Shown here piece by piece: positions 4,167-46,568 of a stretch of DNA of 64,000 nucleotides. How positions within the stretch are numbered: the first letter of the stretch is position 1; each line of letters begins with the position of its first letter. The DNA comes from Prauserella cavernicola (GTDB lineage: Bacteria > Actinomycetota > Actinomycetes > Mycobacteriales > Pseudonocardiaceae): positions 1 to 64,000 of the forward strand of contig NZ_JAENJH010000004.1 in assembly GCF_016595675.1 (NCBI RefSeq). Direction: 5' to 3'. Below the pieces are notes generated by a model that was not told the DNA's origin, did not search any database, and was given only the letters and a program-made list of their open reading frames with translations. Made by a program: the position numbers and the translations under genes.

Positions 4167-6101
4167 ATGGTCGACCAACCGAAGGTGACGGAGAAACAAG
4201 CCAGGGCCGTCGCCGAGGAAGCGAGGGAGAGCGACTGGCACAAGCCCTCCTTCGCCAAGGAGCTCTACCTCGGCCGCTTCCGGCTGGACCTGGTGCACCC
4301 CCACCCGCGGCAGTCCCGCGAGGACTCCGTGAAGGGGGAGAAGTTCCTGTCCCGCCTGCGGGAGTACTGCGCCACGCTCGATCCCGCCGTGATCGAGCGC
4401 GAGGCCCGCATCCCCGACGAGTACGTGAAGGGCCTGGCCGAGCTCGGCTGCTTCGGCATCAAGATCCCCGAGTCCTACGGCGGGCTCGGGCTGACCCAGG
4501 TCGCCTACAACCAGGCGCTGATGCTCGTCGGCTCGGTGCACTCGACCCTGAGCGTGCTGCTCTCGGCGCACCAGTCGATCGGCGTGCCCGAGCCGCTCAA
4601 GCTCGCGGGCACGCCCGAGCAGAAGGAGCGGTTCCTGCCGCGCTGCGCCAAGGGCGCGGTGTCGGCGTTCCTGCTCACCGAACCCGACGTCGGTTCCGAT
4701 CCCGCGCGGCTGGCCACCTCCGCCGTGCCCACCGACGACGGTGAGGCCTACCTGCTCGACGGCGTGAAGCTGTGGACCACCAATGGTGTGGTCGCCGAGT
4801 TGCTCGTGGTGATGGCCAGGGTGCCGAAGAGTGAGGACCGCAAGGGCGGGGTCACGGCGTTCGTCGTCGAGGCCGACTCACCGGGCATCACGGTGGAGCG
4901 GCGCAACGAGTTCATGGGGCTGCGCGGCATCGAGAACGGCGTCACCCGCTTCCACCAGGTCCGGGTTTCCAAAGAGAACGTGGTCGGCGGTGAGGGCAAG
5001 GGCCTCAGGATCGCGCTCGCGACACTCAACACCGGCAGGCTCTCGGTTCCCGCCTCGTGCGCGGGCACGGCGAAGTGGGCGCTCAAGATCGCCCGCGAGT
5101 GGTCGGGCGAGCGCGTCCAGTGGGGTAAGCCCCTCGGGCGGCACGAGGCGGTGGCGAGCAAGATCTCGTTCGTCGCCGCGACGACGTACGCGCTCGAGGC
5201 CGTGGTGGAGCTCTCGGCGCACATGTCCGACGAGGGCCGCAACGACATCCGCATCGAGGCGGCGCTGGCGAAGCTGTGGGCGAGCGAGATGTCCTGCGTC
5301 GTCGCCGACGAGCTCATGCAGATCCGCGGCGGCAGGGGCTACGAGACGGCCGCGTCGCTCGCCGCGCGGGGGGAGCGGGCGGTGCCGGTGGAGCAGCTCG
5401 TCCGCGACCTGCGCATCAACCGGATCTTCGAGGGTTCGTCGGAGATCATGCGCCTGCTGATCGCACGTGAGGCCGTCGACGCGCACCTGGCGGCGGCGGG
5501 CGATCTCGCCGACGCCGAGGCCGACCTCAAGAGCAAGGCGAGCGCCGCGGCCAAGGCGAGCGGCTTCTACGCGAAGTGGCTGCCGCAGCTGGTCTCGGGC
5601 AAGGGGCAGCTGCCGTCGTCGTTCCGCGAGTTCGGTCCGCTGGCGGCGCATCTGCGGTTCGTGGAGCGCACCGCACGCAAGCTGGCCCGCTCGACCTTCT
5701 ACGGCATGGCGCGCTGGCAGGCCGGGCTGGAGCAGCGACAGGGCTTCCTGGGCCGGATCGTCGACATCGGAGCCGAGCTGTTCGCGATGGCGGCCGCGTG
5801 TGTGCGGGCCGAGCGGCAGCGTGCCGACGACGCGGAGCAGGGTGCGGCGGCCTACGAGCTGGCCGACGTGTTCTGCGAGCAGTCGCGGCTGCGCATCGAG
5901 CGGTTGTTCCATGCGCTGTGGTCCAACACGGACGCCGCTGACGCCGGCCTCACCAGGTCGGTGCTGGACGGGCGCCACACGTGGCTCGAGGACGGCGTGC
6001 TGGACCCCAGCGAGGGCACCGGGCCGTGGATCGCCGACTGGCGAGCGGGGGAGTCCGCCACGGACAACGTGGCCCGCCGCTACCTCCCGCCGACCACCTA
6101 G
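4167..6101 (+). CDS. Acyl-CoA dehydrogenase, long form (FadE type)
   Basis: A 644-residue FAD enzyme expected to catalyse the first alpha-beta desaturation of an acyl-CoA in beta-oxidation. Seen: an N-terminal helical domain (LGCFGIKIPESYGGLG), the beta-barrel flavin/substrate segments LLTEPDVGSDPA and LDGVKLWTTNG, then the C-terminal helical domain with MQIRGGRGYETA and RDLRINRIFEGSSEIMR. Ordinary ACADs are about 380-400 residues; this one has a further ~200 residues after IFEGSSEIMR, as in some actinobacterial FadE and VLCAD-like proteins. ATG at 4167 has GAGGAGGG at 4156-4163. The upstream 15-bp palindrome suggests repression by an unlinked regulator. A dispersed hairpin follows the stop codon. 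Confidence 0.93.
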   Translation: MVDQPKVTEKQARAVAEEARESDWHKPSFAKELYLGRFRLDLVHPHPRQSREDSVKGEKFLSRLREYCATLDPAVIEREARIPDEYVKGLAELGCFGIKIPESYGGLGLTQVAYNQALMLVGSVHSTLSVLLSAHQSIGVPEPLKLAGTPEQKERFLPRCAKGAVSAFLLTEPDVGSDPARLATSAVPTDDGEAYLLDGVKLWTTNGVVAELLVVMARVPKSEDRKGGVTAFVVEADSPGITVERRNEFMGLRGIENGVTRFHQVRVSKENVVGGEGKGLRIALATLNTGRLSVPASCAGTAKWALKIAREWSGERVQWGKPLGRHEAVASKISFVAATTYALEAVVELSAHMSDEGRNDIRIEAALAKLWASEMSCVVADELMQIRGGRGYETAASLAARGERAVPVEQLVRDLRINRIFEGSSEIMRLLIAREAVDAHLAAAGDLADAEADLKSKASAAAKASGFYAKWLPQLVSGKGQLPSSFREFGPLAAHLRFVERTARKLARSTFYGMARWQAGLEQRQGFLGRIVDIGAELFAMAAACVRAERQRADDAEQGAAAYELADVFCEQSRLRIERLFHALWSNTDAADAGLTRSVLDGRHTWLEDGVLDPSEGTGPWIADWRAGESATDNVARRYLPPTT

Positions 6102-6115
6102 GTAGCTGGGCCACA

Positions 6116-6170
6116 TGCGGTGAAGGGCACCTTTACTGCATTGAACGCAGTAAAGGTGCCCTTCACCGCA
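6116..6170. repeat. Dispersed 55-bp palindrome, copy 1
   Basis: Two perfect 24-bp arms (6116-6139 and 6147-6170) separated by a 7-nt loop, ATTGAAC. It lies between the convergent acyl-CoA dehydrogenase and DedA genes. The same hairpin recurs at 32818-32872 and 44680-44732. There is no T-tract on either side, so if it ends transcription it is not a classical intrinsic terminator. Confidence 0.9.
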
Positions 6171-6183
6171 GTCGTCGAGAGGG

Positions 6184-6861
6184 TCAGGAGCCGACCGGCT
6201 CGTCGCCGGCGTCCTGGGTGCCCGCGGGTTCCTTGGTCTGGGACGAAGTCGGCGCGAGCGCCTTCTTCTTCTTGAACCGGATCAGCGCGATCACGGCGAC
6301 CGCGGCGAGCACGCCGACCACGATCAGGCCGCCCGTGCTGAGCATGCCCTCCACGCGCTTGGCCGCCTCACCGAGCGCCGCGCCGATGCTGATGTGCAGC
6401 AGCGACCAGGCCGCCGCGCCGCTCACCACAGCCGGCAGGAACTTGCGGTACGGCAGGCCCGAGGTGCCCGCGGCCGCCGGCGTCAGCGTGCGCACCACCG
6501 GCAGGAACCGCGCGAAGAACACCGCCCACGCGCCTCGTCGTTGCAACACGTCGGTGGCCTTGTCCCACGCGTCGGTGCCGTAGCGCCGGATGAGCTTGGT
6601 GTCGCGCAGGCGTGGACCGAACCGCTTGCCGATGGCGTACCCGATCGAGTCACCGATGCCCGCGCAGACGGTGACGACCGCCCACAGGATCACGAACCTC
6701 GGCACCGTGGTCGCCGTGGTGGCCGCGATCAGCAGCCCCGACTCACCGGGCGCGATGAAGCCGAGCCCGATGGTGCATTCGAGCATGACGAGCAGGCCGG
6801 TCGCGCCGACGAGTGCGGGCTGCGGCAGGTTCTGCAGCCATTCGAGCAGGTCGGTTACCAC
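6184..6861 (-). CDS. DedA-family membrane protein
   Basis: A 225-residue polytopic membrane protein of the DedA/VTT (SNARE-associated) family, members of which act in lipid scrambling or undecaprenyl-phosphate recycling and in pH and membrane homeostasis. Seen: the N-terminal re-entrant region with GLGFIAPGESGLL (equivalent of the conserved E in F/Y-x-x-P-G-E), the GDSIGYAIGKRFG segment, and the signature FFARFLPVVRTLTPAAAGTS with its two arginines. Four to five hydrophobic segments and a charged, Lys-rich C-terminus follow. The GTG start at 6861 is preceded by AGGGGA six bases upstream. A 9-bp inverted repeat (6877-6885/6919-6927) sits in its leader. Confidence 0.9.
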   Translation of the reverse strand: MVTDLLEWLQNLPQPALVGATGLLVMLECTIGLGFIAPGESGLLIAATTATTVPRFVILWAVVTVCAGIGDSIGYAIGKRFGPRLRDTKLIRRYGTDAWDKATDVLQRRGAWAVFFARFLPVVRTLTPAAAGTSGLPYRKFLPAVVSGAAAWSLLHISIGAALGEAAKRVEGMLSTGGLIVVGVLAAVAVIALIRFKKKKALAPTSSQTKEPAGTQDAGDEPVGS

Positions 6862-13628: not shown

Positions 13629-13668
13629 AGTGAAGGGGCGCCCACCAAAGGTGGACGCCCCTTCACTC
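13629..13668. terminator. Hairpin after the E2 gene
   Basis: 18-bp arms (13629-13646 and 13651-13668 region) with one mismatch and a tight AAA-type loop, starting GTGAAGGGG and ending CCCCTTCAC. It sits between the E2 stop and the next start, with no T-tract. The outer GTGAAGG/CCTTCAC resembles the dispersed 55-bp palindrome, so it may be a diverged relative. Confidence 0.55.
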
Positions 13669-31399: not shown

Positions 31400-32782
31400 A
31401 TGACCGGTAACCTGCTCGAACCCGCGTCCGTGGACCAACTGCGGAGCCGGTTCAACGGCCGCATCGTCACGCTCGACGACGGTGACTACGAGGACGTGCG
31501 CGCGATCTTCAACGCGATGATCGCCGCGCGACCGCAGGTGATCGCGCGCTGCGCCGACGCCGCCGACGTCGCGGCGGCGCTGGCGTTCGCGCGGGCCAAC
31601 CGGCTGGAGGTCGCCGTGCGCTCGGGCGGGCACAGCGTGGCGGGGGCGAGCCTCGTCGACGGTGGCCTGGTGATCGACACCCGCCTGATGAACGACGCCA
31701 CGGTCGACCCCGGCCGGGCAACGGTGCGCGTCGGCGGCGGCGCGAGCTGGGCCGACTTCGACCAGGCCGCCCAGCGGCACGGCCTGGCGGCCACGGGCGG
31801 GCGCGTGTCGACGACGGGTGTCGCCGGGCTCACGCTCGGCGGCGGATCCGGCTGGCTCGAGCGCAGGTTCGGGCTCGCCTGCGACAACCTGATCTCCGCC
31901 GAGCTCGTCACCGCCGACGGCCGCGTGGTCACGGCGAGCGAGGACCACAACCCCGAGCTGTTCTGGGGGCTGCACGGCGGTGGCGGCAACTTCGGCGTCG
32001 CGACGGCGCTGACGTTCCAGCTGCACCCGCTGCCGGAGTTCTCGATCGCGCTGCTGTTCTGGCCCGCCGAGCAGGGCCGATCCGTAGCGGCCGGCTACCG
32101 CGACCTGATGCGCGACGCGCCCGAGGAAGCGGGCGGGGGCATGCTCTTCCTCACCGGCCCGCCCGAGGACTTCGTGCCGCCACACCTGGTGGGCACGCTG
32201 TGCTGTGGCGTGCTCGTCACCTACTGCGGGCCGCAGGCCGCGCTGCGCGAGTTCGCCGCCCCGCTGCTCGCCGCCGAGCCGCACGGCCAGGTGGTCACCG
32301 ACATCGGCTACGCCGACCTGCAGTGCATGCTCGACGACCCGCCCGGCTACCGGAACTACTGGTCGGACGAGCACGTGCGTGAGCTGCCCGACGAGGCGCT
32401 GGACCGGTTCTGCAGGCGGGCGTACGACATGGTCGTGCCCTCGCCGTCGCAGCACGCCCTGCTGCCGTGGGGCGGCGCGGTGACCAGGGGCCGTGACTGG
32501 CCCGGCTTCGACCGCACCGTGCCGTGGGCAGTGCACCCGCTCGGGCTGTGGGAGGACCCGGCCGACGACGACCGCGCGATCGCGTGGGCCCGCAACCTGC
32601 GCGCGGACATGCAGCCGTGGTCGAGCGGTGACGTCTACCTGAACTTCATCGGCGACGAGGGCGCCGACCGCGTGGTCGCGGGCTACGGCGAGGACAACTA
32701 CCGCAGGCTCGCCAGGATCAAGGCGGAGTTCGACCCGGACAACGTCTTCAACCGCTGGCACGCGGTCCAACCGGCCGCCTGA
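31400..32782 (+). CDS. FAD-linked oxidoreductase with BBE domain
   Basis: A 460-residue flavoprotein of the berberine-bridge/6-hydroxynicotine oxidase-like family. Seen: FAD-binding PCMH domain with VAVRSGGHSVAGASLVDGG (the GGHS histidine is the usual covalent 8-alpha-histidyl FAD site), VGGGASWADFDQAAQ, TGVAGLTLGGGSGWL, and LFWGLHGGGGNFG. The C-terminal BBE segment is YLNFIGDEGADRVVAGYGED then NYRRLARIKAEFDPDNVF. Enzymes of this type oxidise alcohols, sugars or amine substrates with oxygen. ATG at 31400 follows AGGAGG. Location just after an ABC importer suggests catabolism of the imported compound. Confidence 0.92.
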   Translation: MTGNLLEPASVDQLRSRFNGRIVTLDDGDYEDVRAIFNAMIAARPQVIARCADAADVAAALAFARANRLEVAVRSGGHSVAGASLVDGGLVIDTRLMNDATVDPGRATVRVGGGASWADFDQAAQRHGLAATGGRVSTTGVAGLTLGGGSGWLERRFGLACDNLISAELVTADGRVVTASEDHNPELFWGLHGGGGNFGVATALTFQLHPLPEFSIALLFWPAEQGRSVAAGYRDLMRDAPEEAGGGMLFLTGPPEDFVPPHLVGTLCCGVLVTYCGPQAALREFAAPLLAAEPHGQVVTDIGYADLQCMLDDPPGYRNYWSDEHVRELPDEALDRFCRRAYDMVVPSPSQHALLPWGGAVTRGRDWPGFDRTVPWAVHPLGLWEDPADDDRAIAWARNLRADMQPWSSGDVYLNFIGDEGADRVVAGYGEDNYRRLARIKAEFDPDNVFNRWHAVQPAA

Positions 32783-32817
32783 ACCCCCACAGGCCCCCAC
32801 AGGTGCGGCCCCGCAAA

Positions 32818-32872
32818 TGCGGTGAAGGGCACCTTTACTGCGTTGAATGCAGTAAAGGTGCCCTTCACCGCA
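32818..32872. repeat. Dispersed 55-bp palindrome, copy 2
   Basis: Perfect 24-bp arms (32818-32841 and 32849-32872) identical to copy 1, with loop GTTGAAT instead of ATTGAAC. It lies between the convergent flavoprotein and asnB genes, 8 bp from the asnB stop. Confidence 0.9.
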
Positions 32873-32879
32873 TCAGGGC

Positions 32880-34808
32880 TCAGAGCTTGACGGGGTACTG
32901 CGGTTCCGGGATCTCGGGCTTGATGCGGTTCTCGATGAAAATGCCGTGCCACAGCATGAACACCAGCAGCGCCCACAGCCGCCTGCTGTGATCCAGTGCG
33001 CCCGACTTGTGCTCGTCGAGCATCGCCTGCACGGCGGGCTTGTCGAGCAGGTCGCCGGTCTGCGAGTCGGCGATCACGCCGCGTGCCCAGTCGTACATCT
33101 CGTCGCGCAACCACACGCGGATCGGCACGGGGAAGCCGAGCTTGCGCCGGTTGAGCACGTGTGCGGGCACGATGCCGTCGAGTGCCCTGCGCAGCGCGAA
33201 CTTCGTGGTCTCCTTGGTGATCTTCTGGTCGAGCGGGATCGACGACGCCACCCGGAAGACCTCGGAGTCGAGGAACGGCACCCGCAGCTCCAGCGAGTTG
33301 GCCATGGTGACCTTGTCGGCCTTCACCAGGATGTCGCCGCGCAGCCACGTGAACAGGTCCACGTGCTGCATGCGCGCCACCGGGTCCCAGCCGCGCGAGA
33401 GGTCGTACCAGGGTGCGGTGACGTCGCCGTGGCCGACGCCCTCGCGGAACGTCTTGAGCACGCCCCGGAGCTGGTCGTCGCGGAAGATCCGCGCGTTGCC
33501 GTAGTAGCGCTCCTCCAGCGACAGCGCGCCGCGGCGCAGCAGGTCCTTGCCTCGGGTGCCCTCCGGGATGCGCGACGACACCTTGCCGAGCAGCTTGCGG
33601 ACGCCGCCCGGCACCTTCTCGAACGGCGCCAGCGACAGCGGCTCGCGGTAGATCGTGTAGCCGCCGAAGAGCTCGTCGGAACCCTCGCCGGAGAGCACGA
33701 CCTTGACGCGCTTGCGGGCCTCGCGGGCGATGAACCACAGCGGCACGAGCGCCGGGTCGGCCACCGGGTCGTCGAGGTACCAGACGATCAGCGGGAGTGT
33801 GTCCATCATCTCGTCGGCGGACACGGTGCGCACCACGTGCTCGACGCCGATCGCCGCCGCGGACTCGGCCGCCACGTCGACCTCGGAGTAGCCCTCGCGC
33901 TCGAACCCGGTGGTGAAGGTGATCAGGTTCGGGTTGTGTTCCTTGGCCAGCGCGGCGATCGCGGTGGAGTCGATGCCTCCGGAGAGGAACGCGCCCACGG
34001 TGACGTCGGCGCGCATGTGCTTGGCCACCGAGTCGCGCATGACCTCGGCGATCTGCTCGTGCAGCGCCGCGACTTCGGCGGGGCCGGACACGGGCTTGGC
34101 CGTGAACTCGGGGGAGAAGTACCGCTCGGTCTTGACCTCGCCGCCCGGCTCCACCGTGAACGACGTGCCCGACTCGATCCTGCGGATGCCGCTGTGCAGC
34201 GACTCCGGCTCCGGCACGTACTGGAGCACCAGGTAGTGCTGCAGCGCCGTGCGGTCGAGCTCCTCGGCGACGGCGAGCGTGCTCGCCAGCTCCAGCAGGC
34301 TCTTCTTCTCGCTGGCGAACGCGACGCCGCCGGGGCCGGCGGAGTAGTAGAGGGGCTTGATGCCGAACGGGTCCCTCGCGCCGAAGACGACCTTGCGCTC
34401 GGAGTCCCAGATCAAGAACGCGAACATGCCGCGCAGCCGGCCGACCGCGGCTGGGCCGAGGTGGTGGTAGGCCGCGACGATGGACTCGGTGTCACCCTCT
34501 GTGGCGAACTTCGCACCGTGCTCGGCCGCGAGTTCCTCGCGCAGCTCGAGGTAGTTGTAGATCTCGCCGTTGAAGTTGATGGTGTAGCGGTCCGGGTTCT
34601 CCGGCGGACCCCAGGTCAGCGGCTGGTGGGAGTGCTCGACGTCGATGATGGCGAGCCGGTTGAAGCCGTAGACGACCTCACCGTCGGTCCAGGTGTCGGT
34701 CTCGTCGGGGCCGCGATGCCGCTGGCAGCGCAGTGCCTGGCCGACAGCGGGCCTGGCGTTCACCGCGTCGTTCTCGCTGGCACAAACCAGTCCAAGCAGG
34801 CCGCACAC
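32880..34808 (-). CDS. asnB: Asparagine synthase (glutamine-hydrolysing)
   Basis: A 642-residue class II glutamine amidotransferase that makes asparagine from aspartate, glutamine and ATP. The nucleophilic Cys is residue 2 (MCGLLGL), exposed after Met removal. The N-terminal amidase continues with CQRHRGPDETDTW and FNGEIYNYLELREELA. The C-terminal synthetase domain has the PP-loop SGGIDSTAIAALA and later GEGSDELFGGY. GTG at 34808 is required to give the Cys2 N-terminus. In M. tuberculosis asnB (recalled Rv2201) also lies divergent from ctaC, as here. In some actinobacteria this protein amidates DAP in peptidoglycan; sequence alone cannot exclude that role. Confidence 0.96.
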   Translation of the reverse strand: MCGLLGLVCASENDAVNARPAVGQALRCQRHRGPDETDTWTDGEVVYGFNRLAIIDVEHSHQPLTWGPPENPDRYTINFNGEIYNYLELREELAAEHGAKFATEGDTESIVAAYHHLGPAAVGRLRGMFAFLIWDSERKVVFGARDPFGIKPLYYSAGPGGVAFASEKKSLLELASTLAVAEELDRTALQHYLVLQYVPEPESLHSGIRRIESGTSFTVEPGGEVKTERYFSPEFTAKPVSGPAEVAALHEQIAEVMRDSVAKHMRADVTVGAFLSGGIDSTAIAALAKEHNPNLITFTTGFEREGYSEVDVAAESAAAIGVEHVVRTVSADEMMDTLPLIVWYLDDPVADPALVPLWFIAREARKRVKVVLSGEGSDELFGGYTIYREPLSLAPFEKVPGGVRKLLGKVSSRIPEGTRGKDLLRRGALSLEERYYGNARIFRDDQLRGVLKTFREGVGHGDVTAPWYDLSRGWDPVARMQHVDLFTWLRGDILVKADKVTMANSLELRVPFLDSEVFRVASSIPLDQKITKETTKFALRRALDGIVPAHVLNRRKLGFPVPIRVWLRDEMYDWARGVIADSQTGDLLDKPAVQAMLDEHKSGALDHSRRLWALLVFMLWHGIFIENRIKPEIPEPQYPVKL

Positions 34809-44325: not shown

Positions 44326-44607
44326 CTAGTCCTCGACACCGATCTCGAACGCCGACTCGGTGTCGGCCTTCGAGTAGGAGCGGAACGCGATGTGGGTGTC
44401 GGTGCCGAGCACGCCGTCGACCTTGCTGATCCTGGCCGGGATGAGGTCGGCGAGGCCCTCGTGGGTGGGTACGCGCACGAGGGCGATCAGGTCGACGTCA
44501 CCGGCGCAGGAGTACACCTCGGACACCCCTTCGATGTCCGCGATCGCCTGGGCGGCTTCGGGGATGCTGTCCGCGGCGGCGTGAATCAGGACGATCGCGG
44601 TGATCAA
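44326..44607 (-). CDS. Stand-alone Lrp/AsnC ligand-binding domain protein
   Basis: A 93-residue protein consisting only of a RAM/AsnC effector domain (IVLIHAAADSIPEAAQAIAD, IEGVSEVYSCAGDVDLIALV, IPARISKVDGVLGTDTHIAF). No DNA-binding HTH is present, so it cannot act as a classical Lrp regulator; such SraM-type proteins oligomerise and bind amino acids. The start is TTG at 44607, set by GAGGAGG six bases upstream; no ATG or GTG fits. It converges on qcrB. Confidence 0.88.
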   Translation of the reverse strand: MITAIVLIHAAADSIPEAAQAIADIEGVSEVYSCAGDVDLIALVRVPTHEGLADLIPARISKVDGVLGTDTHIAFRSYSKADTESAFEIGVED

Positions 44608-44679: not shown

Positions 44680-44732
44680 GCGGTGAAGGGCACCTTTACC
44701 GCGTTCAGTGCAGTAAAGGTGCCCTTCACCGC
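44680..44732. repeat. Dispersed palindrome, copy 3
   Basis: 20 perfect base pairs (44680-44699 with 44713-44732), extended inward by two pairs after one C/A mismatch, loop GTTCAGT. It differs from copies 1 and 2 by a few bases. It follows the 3' end of the DEDDh nuclease gene on the minus strand. Confidence 0.85.
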
Positions 44733-44757: not shown

Positions 44758-46449
44758 TCAGGCGAGGTGTTCCAGCGTGGTGGCCGTGGCGGCGCGGTCC
44801 AGCCACGGGCGCCAGCCGCCCGCGCCGTGCGCAGGCTCGGCCCACGGCGTCGCCGTGCGCACCAGCCGCACCCCGGGTCCGGTCAGCCAGCGCAGGAGCA
44901 CACCGGCCTCCTCGGCGGCGGCGCCGCGCAGCGGACCGGGGCCAGGCAGGACCGTCTCCGCCGAGGCCACGAGAGCGTCGACCACCGGCATCGGTGCCAC
45001 CCCTCGGCGCGCGACGCCCGCCGAGGCGAGCCTGCCGTGTCGCACCACGGCGAACTCCCAGCCGCCCGCTCCGTCCGGAGCCGCGCCGACCAGCTCCGGA
45101 ATGCCTGCCAGCGCCGCGAGCCGGTGCCCGCGCTCGACGCCGCGCAGCAGTGTCACCAGTTCGTCGCGCCTGCGGGCCGCCTGCTCGAAGTGCTCGGCCT
45201 CGGCGAGCGCGTCGACGTGTTCGCGAGCGGCGTGCAGCGCCGAATTGTCCGTGCCGCGCACGAGGTCGATGACGAGCCGCACGGAGGGCGTGTACTGCTC
45301 GACGCTCTGCCTGCCCGCACAAGGTGCCCCGCACCGGCCCAGCTCGGCCAGCACGCACGGCCGGGCGTCGGCGCCCGTGGCCGGGATGCGCTGGGTGCAG
45401 GTGCGCAGGCCGGTGGCGCCGGCCAGCGCGTCGGCGGCGACCTTGGCTCGGGCCTGCGAGCCGAACGGGCCGAGCGCGCCGTCGCGTTCGGTCCGCACCA
45501 CCGACAGGCGCGGGAACGCCTCGTCGGTGAGCGTCACCCACCAGGCCTTCCTCGGGTTCTTCGAGCGGCGGTTGTAGGAGGGCCGGTGCGCGGCGAGCAG
45601 CCGCAGTTCCCGCACCTGCGCCTCCAGCGCGTGTGCGCACTCGATGCCGTCCACGCGGTCGGCGAGGCCCACCATCTCCCTGATCCGGCCTCTGCTGTCG
45701 GAGCCGGTGAAGTACTGGCGGACACGGCGGCGCAGGTTGTTCGAGGTGCCCACGTAGAGCACCTCGTCCCCTGGACCGCGGAAGAGGTACACACCGGGAC
45801 GCTCGGGCAAGTGTGCGGCCATCCCACGTTTGCGGCGCTGCGCGGGCGTGACGTCAGGCAGGTAGTCGAGCAGTTCCTCCAGCGACTGCACGCCCAGCGG
45901 GCCGACGCGTTCCAGCAGCCCGTGCAGGACGTCCACCGTGGCCTTCGCGTCGTCGAGCGCCCGGTGGGTGGGCTTGGTGCGCGCGCCGAACACGGTCGCC
46001 AGCGCGGAGAGCCGGTGGCTGCGCGTGTCCTGCGGCGTCAGGACACGGCGCGCGAGCTTGAGGGTGCACACGACGGGCGGACGGGGCCAGGCGTAGCCGT
46101 GCCCCTGGCAGGCCGCGCGCAGAAAACCGACGTCGAAGCCCGCGTTGTGCGCCACCAGCACCGAGCCCGCGGCGAACTCGAGGAACGCGGGCAGTACCCG
46201 TTCGATGCGGGGGGCGGCCTGCACCATCGCCGTGGTGATGCCGGTGAGCGCGACGATCTGCGGCGGGATCGGCGCCGCGGGGTCGACGAGCGTGCCGAAC
46301 TCGCCGAGCACTTCGCCGCCGCGCACCTTGACCGCCCCGATCTCGGTGATGCCCTGCGGGCCGGGCGCGCCGCCGGTGGTCTCCAGGTCGACGATGACGA
46401 ACGTGGTGTCGCGCAGGGGAGTACCGAGTTCGTCGAACGTCAGCTGCAT
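44758..46449 (-). CDS. DEDDh exonuclease fused to a UvrC-like GIY-YIG region
   Basis: A 563-residue nuclease. Residues about 10-175 are a DnaQ-type DEDDh 3'-5' exonuclease: FVIVDLETTGG (D-E), VAHNAGFDVGFL, HRALDDAKAT. Residues about 200-290 are a UvrC N-terminal GIY-YIG domain (RPGVYLFRGPGDEVLYVGTSNNLRRRV), followed by a Cys-rich stretch (CVLAELGRCGAPCAG) and a UVR-like motif (EHFEQAARRRDELVTLL). The rest is unassigned. The family (recalled Rv2191, Cho/UvrC-like) is thought to take part in repair. ATG at 46449 follows TAGGGT (46457-46462) by 7 nt, leaderless-like. An upstream GTG at 46473 is less likely. Confidence 0.93.
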   Translation of the reverse strand: MQLTFDELGTPLRDTTFVIVDLETTGGAPGPQGITEIGAVKVRGGEVLGEFGTLVDPAAPIPPQIVALTGITTAMVQAAPRIERVLPAFLEFAAGSVLVAHNAGFDVGFLRAACQGHGYAWPRPPVVCTLKLARRVLTPQDTRSHRLSALATVFGARTKPTHRALDDAKATVDVLHGLLERVGPLGVQSLEELLDYLPDVTPAQRRKRGMAAHLPERPGVYLFRGPGDEVLYVGTSNNLRRRVRQYFTGSDSRGRIREMVGLADRVDGIECAHALEAQVRELRLLAAHRPSYNRRSKNPRKAWWVTLTDEAFPRLSVVRTERDGALGPFGSQARAKVAADALAGATGLRTCTQRIPATGADARPCVLAELGRCGAPCAGRQSVEQYTPSVRLVIDLVRGTDNSALHAAREHVDALAEAEHFEQAARRRDELVTLLRGVERGHRLAALAGIPELVGAAPDGAGGWEFAVVRHGRLASAGVARRGVAPMPVVDALVASAETVLPGPGPLRGAAAEEAGVLLRWLTGPGVRLVRTATPWAEPAHGAGGWRPWLDRAATATTLEHLA

Positions 46450-46568
46450 GATCGGCACCCTAGGCACGACCACCGACAGTTCTTCGCCACCGATTCACCG
46501 CCGCGTCGCCCTGGAAACGGACATCCGAGGGAATGATCAGCCTCACGACGACTCGTCTGGAGGTGACG

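Follow-up and report, generated by a model that had tools for sequence, protein, structure and literature searches.

The question raised by this locus is whether a 55-bp palindrome, found three times at the ends of genes in 64,000 nucleotides of Prauserella cavernicola DNA (the window, i.e., the whole stretch that was analysed), is a repeat that moves, a transcription terminator, or something that combines the two. An earlier reading of the letters, referred to here as the sequence-only reading, had proposed a REP-like element moved in trans, or alternatively a terminator family.

The Hairpins of the Window

The positions of the three hairpins and of the genes around them are given in Table 1. 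The claim that one palindrome occurs twice with identical arms and a third time in a diverged form was borne out. The 24-bp arms of copies 1 and 2 are identical, consisting of TGCGGTGAAGGGCACCTTTACTGC and its reverse complement, and the loops are ATTGAAC in copy 1 and GTTGAAT in copy 2; copy 3 has CCGC in place of CTGC in the arm, and its loop is GTTCAGT. Six matches to the arm were found in the window when ≤3 mismatches were allowed, against none in 100 shuffles, and the three copies are three of the first four inverted repeats listed for the window; the three hairpins are not expected by chance. The gene calls also agree with the placement at gene 3′ ends that had been described, with two copies between convergent genes. 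Copy 3 lies 25 bp beyond the stop of the DEDD exonuclease-domain gene and 72 bp upstream of the start of the small Lrp/AsnC gene. The absence of a T-tract held as well, with only 1–2 T per 10 nt outside each end of the window copies.

Table 1. Hairpin copies and neighbouring genes in the window.
Feature	Position	Strand	Remarks
Hairpin copy 1	6116..6170	.	Arms 6116-6139 and 6147-6170, loop 6140-6146; between convergent genes
Hairpin copy 2	32818..32872	.	Arms 32818-32841 and 32849-32872, loop 32842-32848; pairing reaches 32817-32873; between convergent genes
Hairpin copy 3	44680..44732	.	Arms 44680-44702 and 44710-44732, loop 44703-44709; one arm change
Acyl-CoA dehydrogenase-like gene	4167..6101	+	3′ end before copy 1
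DedA/VTT-domain membrane protein gene	6184..6861	-	3′ end before copy 1, opposite side
FAD-linked oxidase (FAD_binding_4/BBE) gene	31400..32782	+	3′ end before copy 2
Asparagine synthase-like gene	32880..34808	-	3′ end before copy 2, opposite side
Small Lrp/AsnC ligand-binding-domain gene	44326..44607	-	Downstream of copy 3
DEDD exonuclease-domain gene	44758..46473	-	3′ end precedes copy 3

No match to Rfam above the gathering score was obtained in the window; the 32 sub-threshold matches of copy 2 to microRNA families were taken as matches to the hairpin shape and set aside. A further gene-end hairpin (AGTGAAGGGGCGCCCACC/GGTGGACGCCCCTTCACT) is located at 13629-13667 and has the same GTGAAGGG foot; it may be a decayed or an unrelated relative of the 55-bp hairpin.

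Structure and Copy Number of the Family

The P. cavernicola genome that was searched comprises 7.21 Mb in 90 contigs, the window being a stretch of one of them. With the core pattern AAGGNCACCTT-N4-GC-N7-GC-N4-AAGGTGNCCTT and at most one mismatch, 123 hairpins were found in it and none in the reversed control, which is the opposite of a family limited to the few copies first seen. The arms, searched at ≤3 mismatches, gave 123 forward and 121 reverse matches, which is consistent with nearly all arms being paired. The element is about 53–55 bp long and can form one long hairpin on either strand, and its layout is an inverted pair of imperfect palindromes of about 19 bp around a 7-nt spacer. A typical copy can be written as GC-N19-GC-N7-GC-N19′-GC, the outer GC being variable in some copies, and the N19 of either arm is in turn an imperfect palindrome (GTGAAGG-GCA-CCTTTAC in P. 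cavernicola), so that a single arm also folds: the predicted folding energy is -48 to -53 kcal/mol for three 53-mers representing three versions, and -12.3 kcal/mol for a single arm. Triple units (arm-N7-arm-N7-arm, with two 7-base spacers) are found in two genomes of genus g24, G195 and G215. By base counts, the flanks have only a weak CCRACN/NGTYGG tendency and no tetranucleotide tag of the GTAG type. In the 10 nt beyond the stem, counted on both sides of 38 P. cavernicola copies, there are 1.9 T on average and 4 at most.

Covariation outside the GC clamp was found at offset 7 in the copies of relatives, where none of 300 shuffles reached the observed value; it is absent in the P. cavernicola copies, where 254 of 300 did. 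Nothing clear was seen beyond offset 7, and the counts for the outer stem are biased, because 80 of the 107 relatives' copies came from a scan with the exact pattern. Inner 4-bp arm segments of differing type, e.g., CACT opposite GCCT, were seen in 8 of 21 P. flavalba copies and 9 of 16 P. endophytica copies (17 of 37), and there was no mixing of AGTG-type and CCCC-type outer stems in those 37 copies.

Position Relative to Genes

Gene calls came from a small caller of our own based on hexamers, so that single gene boundaries are approximate. The survey of positions covered 864 kb, i.e., C22:1-800000 and the 64-kb window. In it, the core search gave 21 copies (14 convergent, 4 tandem, 1 divergent and 2 inside genes) and the arm-based search 19 (13, 3, 1 and 2, respectively). 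Mapped against gene orientation, 14 of the 19 intergenic copies of the core search lie in convergent gaps, which make up 15% of the intergenic DNA (p = 1e-8), and 2 of the 21 copies lie inside genes, against 88% coding sequence (p = 1e-15).

Strong hairpins of any sequence were also counted in the gaps of 20–500 bp in the part of the P. cavernicola genome examined, where they occupy 29 of the 56 gaps between convergent genes, 19 of the 282 between tandem genes and none of the 108 between divergent ones. Thirteen of the 29 convergent ones pass the string test for the family and 16 fail it; that is to say, the function does not need this particular sequence. In G014, another genome of the genus, strong hairpins occur in 9 of 29 convergent gaps and 1 of 49 divergent gaps without the family, which is therefore not needed for this role. 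Strong hairpins at convergent ends are common with or without the family, and the family accounts for nearly half of them in the part of P. cavernicola examined. Since convergent gaps often bear a hairpin and divergent gaps do not, a 3′-end or terminator role of the hairpin is likely, despite the lack of a U-tract.

Regarded as an intrinsic terminator, the family has the stable GC-rich hairpin just past stops and lacks the U-tract. The U-poor intrinsic terminators of Streptomyces, as far as the accessible text of PMC12207403 goes, are alike in being long stable GC-rich hairpins near 3′ ends, but they have more U (3–4 in 10 nt) than the P. cavernicola hairpin has, and they are not presented in that text as one dispersed sequence family.

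Occurrence in Relatives

The core pattern was found in 25 of 297 Pseudonocardiaceae genomes, distributed over 12 of 46 genera, and 13 genomes have at least 10 copies; this is the reverse of a hairpin without conservation in relatives. In an order-wide sample, it was present in 9 of 42 genomes of the family and in none of 207 genomes of other families. Among the matches listed, the copies differ between genomes at the variable positions. The genome of G014 has no match to the core pattern. G015, which belongs to another genus and has no core match either, contains two hairpins of the same layout and other sequence (GCAATGAAGGGGCCTTTCATCGC... and GCAATGAAAGCGTCC...) in convergent gaps. Another long hairpin family of G015 (CGCATTTCGTCCTCTG...) occurs in several copies within 100 kb, in tandem gaps. 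In the search for a horizontal vehicle, plasmids and phages gave no match to copy 1, and viral contigs gave no exact match of the core pattern.

Replacement at Shared Sites

Shared convergent gaps were defined as those between adjacent orthologue pairs in the compared stretches. In the 37 such gaps of P. cavernicola and P. flavalba, the element is present in both species in 6, only in P. flavalba in 7, only in P. cavernicola in 1 and in neither in 23 (Fisher p = 0.004). The corresponding numbers for P. endophytica are 4 in both, 6 only in P. endophytica, 3 only in P. cavernicola and 18 in neither, and the excess of shared gaps among these 31 is not significant (p = 0.17). In G014, the element is absent from every gap compared. 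Element-free gaps measure 3–13 bp against 57–96 bp for gaps with the element in several comparisons, and in other comparisons the element-free gap is longer than the occupied one. No convincing terminal or target-site duplication was seen by eye in 8 gap alignments.

The site may be shared, but the sequence in it follows the genome. The P. cavernicola copies at shared sites have an average identity of 0.73 (P. flavalba) and 0.71 (P. endophytica) to the copy at the orthologous site, against 0.88 and 0.91 to their own paralogues; a paralogue is closer than the orthologous-site copy in 7 of 8 cases versus P. flavalba and in 6 of 6 versus P. endophytica. P. flavalba and P. endophytica, with a median protein identity of 96%, each have two hairpin versions in the genome. 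At 10 of their 12 shared sites the version is unchanged (identity ≥0.91), and at 2 it has switched (identity 0.68 and 0.72); at the switched sites the flanking DNA can be aligned up to a few bases from the hairpin, except for an indel of about 23 bp to the right of one of them. As a pattern, then, the sequence at a shared site is replaced by the version common in that genome. The sequence-only reading had taken the conserved arms and variable loops as a mark of selection or recent spread. Selection alone is too simple a reading: the arms are indeed alike within a genome, but at one and the same site they vary from genome to genome, a sign of homogenisation or replacement and not of purifying selection on one sequence.

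Copies inside Coding Sequences

Two copies in P. cavernicola lie in frame within genes, one in nuoG and one in the adenylation domain of an NRPS gene. The former gives VKGTFTASDAVKVPFTA, in keeping with the earlier remark that the hairpin can be read as a peptide. In nuoG, the hairpin occupies the same codon position in P. cavernicola, P. flavalba and P. endophytica, and in the alignment, read by eye, its distances from the two flanks are the same in all three species; the versions are GTGAAGGGCACC... in P. cavernicola and CCCCCAAGGCCACC... in the other two; G014 has a short linker and no hairpin. The NRPS site carries P. cavernicola's own version, a full CCCCCAAGG hairpin in P. endophytica, a single arm of the GCAGTGAAGG version in P. 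flavalba, and nothing in G014. This full hairpin versus single arm is the third switch between P. flavalba and P. endophytica. In-gene copies may be tolerated since translation would prevent folding in the message.

The agreement in register in nuoG speaks for a single old insertion, replaced later. The nuoG linker of G003 contains an unrelated palindrome family (GTCGTGAGTG... / TTGGTCGTGAGTGGCGATT...), which is also found twice in 100 kb of G015, and the nuoG linker of G015 contains a related palindrome of another version. These different palindromes across genera show that such elements are repeatedly drawn to the linker or tolerated in it, and nuoG was not retained as proof of a single ancestral insertion, as the G003 and G015 palindromes leave a hot spot possible.

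Search for the Mover and Comparison with Known Repeats

A REP-associated Y1 transposase had been expected by the sequence-only reading, and this expectation failed: at E ≤ 0.01, PF01797 has no match in P. cavernicola, P. endophytica (G053), P. flavalba (G084) or G014, and the control search matched in E. coli. A RAYT as mover was rejected on these grounds (0 of 4 genomes of the genus, positive control). PF01797 is present in 2 of the 15 genomes tested, both of genus g24 (G024 and G172), and no paired family arms were found within 1.5 kb on each side of their Y1 genes. The IS4-type DDE transposase domain PF01609 has no match in the P. cavernicola genome; it occurs in 8 of the 13 genomes in which it was sought, and its presence shows no clear link with the number of hairpins. 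P. flavalba has 33 PF01609 matches against none in P. cavernicola. None of the matches listed for P. cavernicola showed family arms at the two ends of a longer element, and no excision product was found.

As described in the accessible part of Bertels and Rainey 2011 (PMC3116915), REPINs are inverted short imperfect palindromes with a spacer, present in many dispersed copies and mostly as doublets, with genome-specific versions, clusters and single-arm forms. The P. cavernicola hairpin resembles them in these respects: it is a hairpin-forming inverted doublet in high copy (123) and mainly extragenic (19 of 21 copies in 864 kb). It differs from the REPINs of that text in having no RAYT match, no GTAG tag and one long, nearly uninterrupted stem, as well as in its high-GC actinomycete host and its in-place version switching between close species. 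In arrangement and in workings it is like a REPIN, but it is not filed as one, because neither a RAYT (Y1) gene flanked by repeats nor a GTAG-type tag was found.

According to the accessible part of PMC3733652, CGTC-tagged REPs have no dedicated transposase known; they and the Rickettsia palindromic elements are located mostly at 3′ ends and between convergent or unidirectional ORFs, some being in frame in genes, and entry into genes is described for the Rickettsia elements. The same part of the text reports different REPs at about the same site of recB in two Xanthomonas species, a precedent for shared coding sites. In contrast to those elements as they are presented there, no CGTC tag was noticed in the P. 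cavernicola hairpin, and its sequence is unrelated. The main text of PMC3733652 does not mention Actinobacteria, Amycolatopsis, Saccharomonospora or Mycobacterium. Among the titles listed in a literature search conducted mostly outside subscription journals, none named this hairpin family.

The TRIT motif of Mycobacterium tuberculosis, attributed to Gardner et al. in 2011, is said to be a conserved structured motif at gene ends. By description only, it is alike in being a structured gene-end motif in an actinomycete, and to our knowledge neither mobility nor in-gene copies have been described for it. A TRIT motif model is mentioned in the accessible part of PMC3526491.

Weighing the Explanations

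Both proposals of the sequence-only reading account for some of the evidence, and they do not contradict one another: the 123 copies and the 3′-end position stand, and the Y1 transposase does not. The explanation we consider rather probable is a REPIN-like miniature repeat, copied in trans, kept at gene ends and replaced in place. Two inverted imperfect palindromes of about 19 bp, joined by GC-N7-GC, would form one long hairpin on either strand, and a trans-acting machinery without a recognisable Y1 (RAYT) transposase would have spread copies to many places. Copies would survive chiefly at places where forming a hairpin on both strands does no harm or is of use, i.e., in convergent gaps and just past stops, and there, to judge from their position, the hairpins probably terminate the transcripts of both sides or stabilise their 3′ ends, with no U-tract involved. 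Occupied sites would be partly common to species, the sequence of a site being swapped for the genome's common version, either through gene conversion or through loss followed by a new insertion in the same place. In-situ replacement is unusually clear. Against this explanation, the searches gave no transposase, target-site duplication or excision product, the shared-gap excess is significant for P. flavalba but not for P. endophytica, coding sites and gaps could be target hot spots (nuoG in G003 and G015), the few T downstream are weak for intrinsic termination, the nuoG and NRPS copies must let transcription pass, and most sites shared by P. flavalba and P. endophytica keep the same version. 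A more far-reaching proposal is made tentatively and is possible at best: a palindrome-replacement system of the Pseudonocardiaceae, in which a non-Y1 enzyme would excise and re-insert, or ectopically convert, 53-bp hairpins at fixed slots, with slot positions inherited and sequences drifting together to the genome's current versions, even in nuoG.

The same position at gene ends would be expected of a plain bidirectional terminator family, selected there, kept alike by duplication or by recognition by a termination factor, and not mobile. The strong bias to convergent gaps and stop-proximal positions speaks for it, together with the other convergent gaps whose hairpins have other sequences, G014 without the family included, and with the few U (3–4 in 10 nt) of the long stable Streptomyces terminators in the accessible text of PMC12207403. 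It is nevertheless unlikely, given that fewer than half of the strong convergent hairpins passed the family string test, that copies are found in nuoG and the NRPS gene, that a single-arm form, near-empty gaps and version switching in close species exist, and that T downstream are fewer even than in the Streptomyces terminators of that text. Near-empty gaps, dispersal and the inverted-repeat structure would also suit a MITE derived from an insertion sequence of the DDE type, with two terminal inverted repeats fused into the hairpin; against it stand the lack of arms around a longer element among the matches listed, the absence of PF01609 from P. cavernicola and the absence of target duplications by eye in 8 gap alignments, and we hold it to be improbable. 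If the copies were binding sites of a chromosome-organising or regulatory protein that co-evolves with them, one version genome-wide, changed at shared sites between species, would be explained, but P. flavalba and P. endophytica each harbour two versions that replace one another at a site, and copies follow gene ends, so that we give this account very little credence. Least of all is to be expected from a REP/REPIN family of the classical kind, with a RAYT (Y1 tyrosine transposase) as its mover: the doublet layout, 3′-end bias, intragenic copies and genome-specific versions agree with the accessible parts of PMC3116915 and PMC3733652, yet PF01797 is missing from all four genomes of the genus and found in only 2 of the 15 tested despite a positive E. 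coli control, the two g24 Y1 genes have no paired arms nearby, and the GTAG tag is lacking. For the P. cavernicola genome, the RAYT account is largely refuted.

Significance

Homogenisation of REP-like repeats might proceed through conversion or through repeated transposition. In this family, close species show replacement of the whole element at the same position or a few bases from it; with their flanks alignable and the register fixed by coding sites, the choice between the two routes can be put to a direct test. Moreover, a REPIN-like family is present here in high copy without the transposase to which the movement of such repeats is usually credited. For the organism itself, the family illustrates how a sizeable part of the strong hairpins in convergent gaps can come from mobile DNA (13 of 29 in the part examined).
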